Shown here: in pieces, positions 20,607 through 23,491 of the stretch | Position numbering within the stretch: the first letter of the stretch is position 1 | Layout: each line of letters opens with the position of its first letter | IMG/VR virus record: IMGVR_UViG_3300002223_000433 | Span: 1 to 24,057 of that record | Source: a virus | Strand: one strand, 5' to 3' | DNA length: 24,057 bases | Program-made: the position numbers and the translations under genes | The notes under the pieces: generated by a model | The model's input: the letters and a program-made list of their open reading frames with translations, nothing else | Database searches by the model: none | What the model was told of the DNA's origin: nothing

Positions 20607-21161
20607 CTAGGCTTGGGCGACCTCCACGACGCGCAAGCGCTCCCGTTCGATGTCATCCTGGAGCGACTGGGTGGGCGTCATGGACTGGCCTTTTTGCAGG
20701 CAGAGGAGATCCGGGATGAAGTTGGACACGCACGCCGGGGACCGGATACTCCAAAAGGCGAGGATCCGAGCGCGATAGCGGGCGTGTTGACAGTAGAACG
20801 CTAAATGGAACACCGGATTCTGTTGCAACCACTGGCGCAGTGTGGCGGGCATAATGCCCATGCTGATCGCCACGGTGGGGATATCCGAAATGGCGGGTTC
20901 CACCACGGTGACAGCACCACGGCGGCGGAACTCTTCGCGGGTAAAGGTCGCGAGCAGTTGCGTCAGGAACGCCGATTGATCTGGGCGGTTCTGTTGCTGG
21001 AAGTAGGTGGGCCACCACTGATCCCGGCCACTTTCTTCTGTGGCGGAGAATTGGTCGAGGAGTTGCTGGAGTGCCGGGGTGATCTCCGGCGGTTCATGGA
21101 CGAACTGCTGGAACTGTGGGGTGCCCCAGACGACTTCTGGTCTTGCGAACTTTCCGGCCAC
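20607..21161 (-). CDS. HTH protein, candidate terminase small subunit, 184 aa
   Basis: The start is GTG at 21161; GGAGG and a second GGAG lie about 10 and 5 nt upstream, right after a nested hairpin. Residues 93-117 (DIPTVAISMGIMPATLRQWLQQNPVF) have helix-turn-helix spacing ('A...G....TLRQWL'). They are followed by HLAFYCQHARYRARILAFW, a helix placed as in small terminases, where it drives oligomer formation. The N-terminal 60 residues are Gln/Pro-rich. As the HTH gene closest upstream of TerL in the operon it is the best TerS candidate, although two genes separate them. It could instead be a transcription regulator of the late operon. The TAG at 20607 ends it. Confidence 0.6.
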   Translation of the reverse strand: MAGKFARPEVVWGTPQFQQFVHEPPEITPALQQLLDQFSATEESGRDQWWPTYFQQQNRPDQSAFLTQLLATFTREEFRRRGAVTVVEPAISDIPTVAISMGIMPATLRQWLQQNPVFHLAFYCQHARYRARILAFWSIRSPACVSNFIPDLLCLQKGQSMTPTQSLQDDIERERLRVVEVAQA

Positions 21162-21230: not shown

Positions 21231-21259
21231 ACGTTACACCTGGTTTTTCAGAATGTCAA
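21231..21259 (-). promoter_or_regulatory. Sigma70-like promoter for the TerS-to-tail operon
   Basis: On the minus strand TTGACA (21259-21254) is separated by 17 bases from TAACGT (21236-21231). The -35 is a perfect consensus and overlaps the TGA of the upstream zinc-ribbon gene. The -10 keeps the TA...T frame only. The predicted start is near 21224, giving a leader of about 63 nt to GTG 21161. Confidence 0.58.
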
Positions 21260-21630
21260 GCTGGGGGGGTGTTCAGTAATGTGACCAGTGCGGGGGGATG
21301 CAGTAAGGTGGCTCGCACCTTCTCGGCGTACTGATTCAGCAATACCTCTTCAAACGGTGTGCCAGGTGGGTCAAAGGTTTCCACGGGTGTCGCCCCCGCT
21401 TCGAGCTCCAGAAAACGGGCATACCCCGCGGCAACCTCCTGGGTTTGCCTGTCAGGCCAGACCCCCAGACTCACGCCGTGCGGACCATGGGGGCAGTAGT
21501 ATTCCGGTTCCTCTCCATCCCATCCTGGGGAGGGGTTCGTGCAGACGAGTCCCTGTTGGCCGCACACGGGGCAAAAGAGGACCGTGCGCTTCCAGGTGAC
21601 GAGTTCCTGATCGTGCCACTGGAGGCTCAT
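21256..21630 (-). CDS. Zinc-ribbon protein, 124 aa
   Basis: I use ATG at 21630, which forms an ATGA overlap with the previous stop; the long in-frame extension to 21948 lies inside the neighbouring gene and is rejected. Residues 20-51 carry CPVCGQQGLVC, then YYCPHGPHG (C20, C23, C30, C46, H48, H51), a plausible zinc ribbon or treble clef. The C-terminal half is helical (VAAGYARFLELEAGATP, NQYAEKVRATLLHPP). The ligand pattern could bind zinc and nucleic acid or protein; no specific family is recognised. It is in the early part of the leftward operon, before the TerS promoter. Confidence 0.66.
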   Translation of the reverse strand: MSLQWHDQELVTWKRTVLFCPVCGQQGLVCTNPSPGWDGEEPEYYCPHGPHGVSLGVWPDRQTQEVAAGYARFLELEAGATPVETFDPPGTPFEEVLLNQYAEKVRATLLHPPALVTLLNTPPA

Positions 21631-21980
21631 GGCTGGTCTCCCAGCACCTTGTTGGCGCGTTTCAGCCAGGCCGTGATGAGGGGTCCATGCTCCCCACCGG
21701 GTCTGAAGTAACTGACCGCATCCCGCAGTAGTTGTTCCAGCGTTTGTTCGCGCACGTCCTGTGCCGTGACGGGGTGCGCTTGGGCTGCCGGCTGCGGTTC
21801 CAGCTCGGCGAGCAGGGCATCGGCGGCCCACACCGCTTGCCTGGCAGCTTTCCTGCCATCCGTCTCCATTGTCGGGGTTGTGCTCCGTGCCTGGTGATAA
21901 CACACCGGCCACAGGGCCAGCGCGGCCTGGAACCGGCGGGCACTCCATTCCTGTGGCGTGAGTCGGTATTCATCGTTCAT
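21627..21980 (-). CDS. Hypothetical helical protein, 117 aa
   Basis: I use ATG at 21980, overlapping the preceding HTH gene by 11 nt; an earlier start (22019) adds a basic leader and overlaps that gene by 50 nt. It begins MNDEYRLTPQEWSARRFQAALALWPVCY and is predicted largely helical. An acidic, Pro/Ala-rich linker (about 60-75, ELEPQPAAQAHP) precedes the C-terminal helices (EQTLEQLLRDAVSYF, LITAWLKRANKVL). No motif points to a function. Its stop overlaps the zinc-ribbon gene by 4 nt, so the two are probably made together. Confidence 0.64.
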   Translation of the reverse strand: MNDEYRLTPQEWSARRFQAALALWPVCYHQARSTTPTMETDGRKAARQAVWAADALLAELEPQPAAQAHPVTAQDVREQTLEQLLRDAVSYFRPGGEHGPLITAWLKRANKVLGDQP

Positions 21981-22170
21981 CCCTGGTCCCCTTTCGCTCC
22001 TGCATCCACGCTTCGACATCCTTCCGCCGGTAGCGCACCGCAGAGTTCTTGCCCATCCCCAGTTTCAGCCAGGTGGGTCCCTGCCTGTGATACCGCAGCC
22101 ATTTCAAGCCATGGACGGTCATGTTCAGGTAGTCGGCGACTTCCTTCGTGGTCATCAGCGGTTCCGGCAT
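21970..22170 (-). CDS. Excisionase-type (MerR-like/HTH_17) DNA-binding protein, 66 aa
   Basis: It starts at ATG 22170, or at 22155 (residue 6), which would fit a message with a short leader and a weak GGAA. The sequence MTTKEVADYLNMTVHGLKWLRYHRQG matches the winged-helix excisionase pattern (helix 1, 'EVA.YL..', helix 2 recognising DNA), and GPTWLKLG then VRYRRKDVEAWMQERK forms the wing and last helix. Proteins of this size act as excisionases or small repressors. No integrase is visible here, so a regulatory role at the divergent promoter next to it is the more economical guess. It is the first gene of the leftward operon. Confidence 0.8.
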   Translation of the reverse strand: MPEPLMTTKEVADYLNMTVHGLKWLRYHRQGPTWLKLGMGKNSAVRYRRKDVEAWMQERKGTRDER

Positions 22171-22181
22171 GGTTCAGACAG

Positions 22182-22209
22182 ATTATCACGAATTGACAGA
22201 GCAAGTCAA
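22182..22209 (-). promoter_or_regulatory. Leftward sigma70-like promoter
   Basis: TTGACT (22209-22204), 16-bp spacer, GATAAT (22187-22182) on the minus strand. The predicted start, about 7 bases past the -10, is near 22175, only about 5 nt before ATG 22170. No SD precedes that ATG, so the message may be translated leaderless, or from the inner ATG at 22155 with a leader of about 20 nt. Confidence 0.58.
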
Positions 22210-22221
22210 GTATGGTATGGT
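22193..22221 (+). promoter_or_regulatory. Rightward sigma70-like promoter (consensus -35, 17-bp spacer)
   Basis: TTGACA (22193-22198), exactly 17 bp, TATGGT (22216-22221). The predicted start near 22228 lies about 4 nt before ATG 22232, and no SD is present upstream of that ATG. The element overlaps the leftward promoter on the other strand, so the two may compete for polymerase. Confidence 0.66.
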
Positions 22222-22231
22222 GTTTGTCGCC

Positions 22232-22327
22232 ATGAAGGAGTGGAAAGAAGGCTTTCTAACTGGGGCGCTGACGGTAGGCATCACGGCCTTCGCCACCTAT
22301 TTCATCGTGCTCTGGATCACATCATGA
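22232..22327 (+). CDS. Single-TM micropeptide, 31 aa
   Basis: It begins at ATG 22232 right after the rightward promoter and ends in an ATGA overlap with the next gene. The sequence starts MKEWKEG, then one hydrophobic helix of about 20 residues (FLTGALTVGITAFATYFIVL, about 8-27), then WITS. The charged N-terminus and single helix fit a small membrane protein, possibly holin-like or a membrane regulator, but nothing specific. Its reality is supported by the tight overlap and by the promoter. Length makes it easy to miss. Confidence 0.6.
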   Translation: MKEWKEGFLTGALTVGITAFATYFIVLWITS

Positions 22328-22533
22328 GTCTCATCGCCCTCTCGACTCCCCAGGATTTCGTCCTTTTCAGCCGCGGTGTCGAGGTCGGCTGTGCCATGCT
22401 GTTGCATCTCAGTGTGCAGGCGTTTCGCCAGCAGTATCGTCTCGACGCTGATCTTCAGGCTGGGAAACTGGTGCTGCACCTCTGGCGGCAAGGGGAACCC
22501 CCCGCACGCTTTGCCACCTTCCAGGAGGACTGA
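22324..22533 (+). CDS. Hypothetical protein, 69 aa
   Basis: ATG at 22324 forms the ATGA overlap with the micropeptide gene; the longer frame upstream crosses the promoter and antisense genes and is rejected. The protein MSLIALSTPQDFVLFSRGVEV... contains a mixed hydrophobic helix (VGCAMLLHLSVQAFRQQY) and a C-terminal strand-like segment (KLVLHLWRQGEPP), ending FQED. No family is recognised. Confidence 0.58.
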   Translation: MSLIALSTPQDFVLFSRGVEVGCAMLLHLSVQAFRQQYRLDADLQAGKLVLHLWRQGEPPARFATFQED

Positions 22534-22536
22534 CCC

Positions 22537-22926
22537 ATGCACTGGCTCCGTACTCAGCTCTGCCGCTTCCATTGCTGGTTCCAGGGACCCCATGATCCGC
22601 GTTGGCCCCAGAACGAGGAAGACTTCACCACGTGTCGCTGTTGCGGGACCAGGCTCCCCTTGTCTCTAGAGCACCACCAGTTCCGCCAAGAACAGGAGTT
22701 GCGCCTCACGCAAGAGGCCGCGGACGAGGCGGAAGCCGACCGCGCCTGGGCCGGCAACCTGTACTGTGGCCCGCGTCCCGTGCCGCGGTATCGGCAGGAG
22801 AGAGACGACCTGGCGGCTCTCCGCGCTCAGTCACACATGGCGAGGCAGCAAGACCTGTGGTTACTCGCCTATCCTGCCCCGCGGTTTCCCTCCTGGGCGC
22901 CGTGGCAGATCGAGGGGCTCGGATGA
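22537..22926 (+). CDS. Cys-rich zinc-finger-like protein, 129 aa
   Basis: ATG at 22537 follows AGGAGG with about 8 nt spacing, the best SD of this operon, and lies 3 nt after the upstream stop. The N-terminal part (C9, H12, C13 and later C33, C35, C36 in TCRCCG) has the ligands for a zinc knuckle. The middle is an Ala/Glu/Arg-rich helix (RQEQELRLTQEAADEAEADRA), and the C-terminus is Trp/Pro-rich (RFPSWAPWQIEG). Its function is unknown. The ending overlaps the next gene in ATGA. Confidence 0.62.
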   Translation: MHWLRTQLCRFHCWFQGPHDPRWPQNEEDFTTCRCCGTRLPLSLEHHQFRQEQELRLTQEAADEAEADRAWAGNLYCGPRPVPRYRQERDDLAALRAQSHMARQQDLWLLAYPAPRFPSWAPWQIEGLG

Positions 22927-23152: not shown

Positions 23153-23491
23153 ATGCGGTACGAATGGGTGTCTCTCGGCCAGGCAGCGTCCCTCACCGGA
23201 GTCCCTGTGCGGAGACTCCGGACACTCGCCTTGCGTGGCAAAGTGCCGGTCTCGTGGCCGACTGGACGCCAGATACGGTTCTCCTATCCGTGGCTCTTGG
23301 CCTATCTCGACTTCCGCTATGCCGATCGCCGGGCCTGTCTGCTGGCCGCCGCCCATCGTCCACCCGCTCCCGTCCTGCCGTCACTCGCGCTCACAGAGGG
23401 CCCCCCCTGGGCCCCTCTGTGCCCAGCCGACACCGCTAAAATGTTAGTCATTTGGAGACGCACGCCGCGCAGATCGATGGTGCTCGGATGA
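23153..23491 (+). CDS. Excisionase-type HTH protein with extended tail, 112 aa
   Basis: ATG at 23153 lies 2 nt after the upstream stop. Residues 5-52 (WVSLGQAASLTGVPVRRLRTLALRGKVPVSW, then TGRQIRFSYPWLLAYL) follow the MerR/excisionase winged-helix pattern, with helix 2 around VPVRRLRTLALRG and the wing around GRQIRFSY. The C-terminal 50 residues are Pro/Ala/Arg-rich and probably disordered. Part of the tail is encoded across a strong GC hairpin at 23392-23421. It overlaps the next gene by ATGA. It and the 66-aa HTH protein on the opposite strand are the two DNA-binding candidates for the switch region. Confidence 0.7.
   Translation: MRYEWVSLGQAASLTGVPVRRLRTLALRGKVPVSWPTGRQIRFSYPWLLAYLDFRYADRRACLLAAAHRPPAPVLPSLALTEGPPWAPLCPADTAKMLVIWRRTPRRSMVLG
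23392..23421 (+). other. Strong GC hairpin inside the HTH gene
   Basis: CACAGAGGG (23392-23400) pairs perfectly with CCCTCTGTG (23413-23421). The 12-base loop itself contains CCC...GGG that can extend the stem past one bulged C. No T-run follows, so a rho-independent terminator is not supported. It could act as an RNase site or attenuator within the operon. Confidence 0.55.

Follow-up and report, generated by a model that had tools for sequence, protein, structure and literature searches.

Divergent control regions with overlapping promoters and short leaders are already documented in other phages and in plasmids. In phage PY54 the divergent cI and cro mRNAs have both been mapped by RACE as leaderless (PMC4488713), and the Pc/Pr conjugation switch of plasmid pLS20 (PMC4207663), in which the sigma-A promoters diverge and overlap and are flanked on one side by a regulator gene, has been shown experimentally to be a switch, with DNA looping and a tri-functional regulator. 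In the EcoRV restriction-modification system (PMC5333194), likewise, the RNA polymerase sites of the divergent promoters overlap, and a small regulator, the C protein, is present. In the symmetric bidirectional promoters described by the Grainger group (PMC10268837), divergent transcription proceeds from shared promoter DNA, with starts 7-25 bp apart and reciprocal -10 elements.

Here we describe a divergence gap in 24,057 bases of viral DNA (hereafter the window, meaning the whole stretch that was analysed), which resembles each of these systems in part. As in the PY54 cI/cro region, divergent promoters lie among regulator genes in an intergenic region of small size (116 bp in PY54), whereas PY54 has transcription starts exactly at the AUG, CI and Cro repressors and a characterised operator, and the window has predicted leaders of 3-6 nt, an HTH_17 protein and a small peptide. 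The overlap of the promoters and the regulator gene on one side recall pLS20, in which, unlike in the window, both genes have ribosome-binding sites. The EcoRV system differs in the family and function of its regulator, and the leaderless C transcript that has been reported belongs to AhdI and not to the EcoRV divergent layout. Membership in the symmetric bidirectional class was rejected on spacing, since the predicted starts in the window are ~53 bp apart (against 7-25 bp) and it is the -35 regions that overlap.

Organization of the window

The window is an IMG/VR virus record with a G+C content of ~61% and is probably a fragment. Its leftward strand encodes the terminase large subunit, the portal protein and further structural and tail-fibre genes, and its rightward strand carries small genes of no assigned function as far as the window end. 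The two sets part at a gap of 61 bp (22171-22231; 44% G+C). Gene packing is dense throughout, with just seven gaps of at least 15 bp in the gene list made for the window.

The first leftward gene (21970-22170, minus strand) encodes a 66-aa DNA-binding protein of the HTH_17 (excisionase/MerR-like) type, which matches Pfam HTH_17 at E=3.3e-9 and PHROG 66 at E=2.8e-7 and scores 37.3 bits against the HTH_17 profile, above the curated cut-off of 27. The second (21627-21980, minus strand) and third (21256-21630, minus strand; 124 aa) have no assigned function; the second starts at an ATG at about 21980. On the other side of the gap, the first rightward gene (22232-22327, plus strand) encodes a peptide of 31 aa that includes a hydrophobic stretch (MKEWKEGFLTGALTVGITAFATYFIVLWITS), and the codon-usage log-odds of this short frame are positive, i.e., coding-like, in its own frame only. 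The second rightward gene (22324-22533, plus strand; 69 aa) begins within an ATGA overlap with the first and is probably translated by coupling to it, an arrangement that has a parallel in mycobacteria, where leaderless small ORFs are coupled to the gene that follows (PMC4633059). A second HTH_17/MerR-like protein, with a profile match below the curated cut-off, is encoded by the fifth rightward gene (23153-23491, plus strand).

The promoter pair

Two sigma-70-type promoter sequences share the gap. The rightward one (22193-22221, plus strand) reads TTGACA-17-TATGGT, with its -35 hexamer at 22193-22198 and its -10 hexamer at 22216-22221, ahead of the ATG at 22232; it is of the extended -10 kind (TGG TATGGT), with the TG one base ahead of the -10. 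The leftward one (22182-22209, minus strand) reads TTGACT-16-GATAAT, with its -35 at 22209-22204 and its -10 at 22187-22182, ahead of the ATG at 22170. Each matches the consensus at 10 of 12 positions, both -10 hexamers departing from it (TATGGT on the plus strand, and GATAAT, a 5/6 match, on the minus strand), and the spacings of 17 and 16 nt fall within the 16-18 nt looked for in promoters of this type.

Sequences of this quality are rare in the window. A scan of both strands over its whole length found only these two sites at 10/12, one per strand, and of the 11 sites that reach at least 9/12 the only non-coding ones are the gap pair and a third at 21259-21231. Random 61-mers were also simulated, 60,000 at the base composition of the window and 60,000 at that of the AT-richer spacer itself. 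At the composition of the window the plus-strand match arose in 0.04% and the minus-strand match in 0.05% of the sequences, and both together in 1 of 60,000; at that of the spacer the corresponding values were 0.5%, 0.7% and 3 of 60,000. When each -10 was also required to end 8-13 nt from its gene, none of the 120,000 sequences had both matches. Origin of the promoter pair by chance is thus very unlikely, and the sequences, coordinates and spacings of the pair are as the first-pass annotation gave them.

A pair of matches need not mean a pair of promoters, and one could suppose that a single promoter is real and that the second pair of hexamers arose incidentally, e.g., from a -35-like operator palindrome. 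The interleaved -35 elements do form a palindrome, TTGAC-N7-GTCAA (22193-22209), and two unrelated T4-like contigs, L021 and L022, show the same arrangement at a promoter that appears to act in one direction. Against this, the minus-strand site also has a 5/6 -10 hexamer with the correct spacing and distance to an ATG, the pair is rare by chance, and the first gene of the left module would otherwise be without a visible promoter; we consider a lone promoter distinctly improbable.

Leaders and start codons

The distance from the end of the -10 to the first ATG is 10 nt on the right and 11 nt on the left. Transcription normally starts 7-8 nt past the -10, which would place the rightward start at C22228 or G22229, for a leader of 3-4 nt (or at G22226, for one of 6 nt), and the leftward start at G22175 or A22174, for a leader of 4-5 nt. 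A strictly leaderless mRNA would here need a start 11-12 nt past the -10, which is unusual. It had been suggested that both promoters may make leaderless mRNAs, and what survives of this is the prediction of very short leaders (~3-6 nt); given the 10-11 nt between -10 and ATG, strict leaderlessness is not predicted. Since leaders of this length would leave no AUG at the 5' terminus, the mRNAs are more accurately called "near-leaderless".

No Shine-Dalgarno (SD) sequence serves either of the first ATGs. Our SD scan shows no pairing upstream of 22170, and upstream of 22232 only weak pairing, inside the -10 region and outside the predicted transcript. Most of the later genes do have SD sites, as had been noted from the sequence, with pairing energies (in kcal/mol) of -10.3 at 22537, -7.2 at 22923, -7.1 at the fifth rightward gene (23153), -7.3 at the third leftward gene (21630) and -9.3 at 21161, against a background median of -2.7 kcal/mol. 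The second rightward gene (22324) departs from this generalization in that it, too, lacks an SD. The second leftward gene was scored by the scan from a longer ORF start, 22019, and not from 21980; a purine-rich, SD-like AAAGGGG can be read in the sequence upstream of this gene. With the two -10 elements 10-11 nt from the ATGs, the mRNAs would carry only ~3-6 nt ahead of the start codon, with no SD, and so would be expected to undergo translation of the leaderless type. When folded as RNA, neither 5' region looked unusual (z scores of 0.49 and -1.15).

The case for a near-leaderless message on the left depends on where the left gene begins. An alternative in-frame ATG at 22155 would mean a leader of 20 nt, and a weak GGA lies six nt upstream of it, but the pairing energy there (-3.5 kcal/mol) is close to the background median. 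The N-termini of HTH_17 homologues (MAPLLTT, MEKLMT and MSQLLT) match the MPEPLMTT that is read from 22170; in the homologues checked the initial methionine sits several residues ahead of the conserved L(L/M)T, as it would with a start at 22170. These N-termini favour 22170 over 22155, and initiation at the downstream ATG, with an mRNA that is not leaderless, appears unlikely.

Relatives and the promoter core in other phages

Where contigs from other samples overlap the window, they match it at 100% identity over their aligned lengths, and the spacer is contained in only one of them, where it too is identical; being identical, these contigs carry no information on selection. No diverged relatives were found among viral contigs with the terminase, HTH and portal proteins and three further structural-module proteins as queries, the scans returning only the identical contigs from other samples and one weak HTH match (L004). 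No relative was found in bacterial genomes scanned with the HTH and terminase proteins, and tblastn of the structural proteins against annotated phages gave distant matches only (~18% for the portal, 23-32% for the terminase) or none.

A DNA scan with the core of the spacer detected a near-identical promoter in the T4-like contigs L021 (2106-2134) and L022 (2594-2622). These two contigs have no blastn similarity to the window, and the shared promoter core was therefore judged to be convergence. In both, the sequence reads TTGACA-N6-GTCAAGTATGGTATGGT and there is no divergent gene alongside. A looser scan for TTGAC-N12-GTATGGTATGGT found matches in 49 viral contigs, the majority of them being one conserved coding sequence of a single phage family; with most of the matches coding, the count alone is no evidence for a promoter. 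The remaining matches fall into eight promoter-like groups, a grouping made after the list had been seen, all of which have the full TTGACA. By sequence comparison there is thus mild support for the view that the plus-strand site represents a working promoter type. In L036 (695-723) and L049 (2092-2120), TTGACA-17-TATGGT is followed after 6 nt by the ATG of an 81-codon frame, which is possibly a strictly leaderless gene in unrelated phages.

Promoter overlap and regulation

The -35 boxes of the two promoters interleave and their predicted starts lie ~53 bp apart, from which, given the known footprint of RNA polymerase, we infer that two polymerases could not sit on both promoters at once. The suggestion that simultaneous firing is unlikely is in this respect a sound deduction from the geometry of the promoters. 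That the gap holds a divergent, overlapping pair of promoters whose predicted leaders are very short is well supported by the sequence statistics, by the gene starts and by an analogous conserved case in Microbacterium phages (see below).

The explanation that we favour, and hold to be probably correct, is that the gap is a tailed-phage divergent control node with interleaved promoters, near-leaderless mRNAs, competition between directions and feedback by the HTH_17 protein. Two host sigma-70-type promoters would be interleaved through their overlapping -35 regions, the leftward one reading through the small gene for the HTH_17 regulator in the direction of the terminase, portal and remaining structural genes, and the rightward one through the 31-aa peptide gene into the run of small genes. 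The first cistrons on both sides would be translated in leaderless fashion, subject to the tolerance of the host for leaderless mRNA, and the ATGA overlap would hand ribosomes from the 31-aa ORF to the second rightward gene. Because only one polymerase at a time would occupy the node, the two directions would compete, and the HTH_17 protein most likely binds the gap and biases the direction, i.e., acts by autoregulation. If true, this would be a very compact case in which divergent promoters overlap and give nearly leaderless messages, placed at the junction of a small-gene module and a structural module.

A simpler possibility is that these are plain constitutive, divergent early promoters, whose overlap and short leaders result from genome compaction and have no regulatory meaning. 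The dense gene packing of the window is consistent with it, and leaderless starts, which certain hosts use commonly, have been described in mobile DNA as well (PMC9031893, PMC4633059). The presence of a DNA-binding protein as the first gene on one side, both in the window and in the Microbacterium phages, speaks instead for feedback, and we regard compaction by itself as a possible, if somewhat doubtful, account of the gap.

The first-pass annotation had gone further and proposed that the site may be a bistable switch with the adjacent HTH proteins as regulators. In such a switch, as with CI and Cro in lambda, the overlapping promoters and the HTH proteins would fix the phage in one of two states. 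Competition enforced by the geometry is compatible with this idea, as are the HTH_17 gene next to the gap and the other HTH gene, which belongs to the opposing module, and in plasmid pLS20 overlapping divergent promoters do belong to a real switch (PMC4207663). Bistability does not follow from competition alone, however. Neither a CI/Cro-like HTH_3 repressor nor a tyrosine integrase (Phage_integrase) was matched in the window or in two overlapping contigs, all of which are fragments. In place of the antagonistic HTH repressors that flank the promoters of a CI-Cro arrangement, an HTH gene adjoins the gap on one side only; of the two HTH proteins that had been put forward as adjacent regulators, the HTH_17 protein is indeed a neighbour of the gap and the other is the product of the fifth rightward gene. 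Nor was an operator array detected, there being no direct repeats in 22100-22300 and no exact central symmetry other than the -35 palindrome. TTGAC-N7-GTCAA may possibly be an operator, and the -35 elements alone account for the palindrome. With no HTH_3 repressor, integrase or operator series found and a single regulator adjacent, the switch lacks support, and we think it quite unlikely. A 12-nt imperfect inverted repeat (22145-22156/22181-22192) was judged weak and set aside.

A comparable node in Microbacterium phages

Seven Microbacterium phage records (L015, L018 and L070-L074) have a divergent gap headed by a distant homologue (31-39% identity) of the HTH_17 protein; the records are closely related to one another and hence are not independent cases. 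The gap is 30 bp where both starts are annotated; in CandC and OneinaGillian one gene is annotated with a different start, but the DNA is conserved. TGN-TATNNT elements resembling -10s, read by eye, lie exactly 6 nt ahead of both ATGs in 7 of the 7 records. In Fregley the module opposite the HTH_17 gene leads to the terminase and portal genes.

The node of these Gillianvirus/Squashvirus phages (gp13/gp14 in Fregley) is like that of the window in that a short divergent gap close to the terminase-portal module is headed on one side by an HTH_17 gene. It is unlike the window in that its extended -10 elements stand back to back, without clear -35 elements and with strictly leaderless spacing, and in that the HTH_17 gene heads the non-structural side, whereas in the window it heads the structural side. 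By analogy, and with promoters that are predicted there as well, the Microbacterium node lends support to leaderless control in both directions at this position in the genome and suggests that the layout recurs there. OneinaGillian has been described as lytic (PMC9224216), which counts against the switch proposed for the window, and the analogy would accordingly weaken a lysogeny-switch reading. A more general proposal, which we offer as speculative and unlikely as it stands, is that phages recurrently use a node in which an HTH_17 gene borders a very short divergent gap close to the terminase module, both mRNAs have no leader or almost none, and competition between polymerases would choose between the small-gene and structural directions, acting as a timing device in lytic phages too. 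The core of the gap in OneinaGillian (L074), GATAGCATGCTATC, is a perfect palindrome.

Flanking sequences and the third non-coding site

The third non-coding site in the window, TTGACA-17-TAACGT (21231-21259, minus strand; 9/12), precedes a 184-aa gene that lies ahead of the terminase and portal genes and has a leader of ~60 nt with a strong SD. It is likely to be a separate promoter of the structural module. At the left end of the window, the overlapping contig L009 carries a 1057-aa tail-fibre-like frame on the minus strand, which starts near window position 552 and exits through the left end; the window is therefore coding from position 1 to ~552. Past the right end, L002 (1-1037) adds ~0.9 kb without a convincing gene, GTG/TGT-rich at its far end. 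Near the gene-side border of this stretch is TTGACA-18-TACCCT, which opens with CTTGACATTC, as does the site at 21259.
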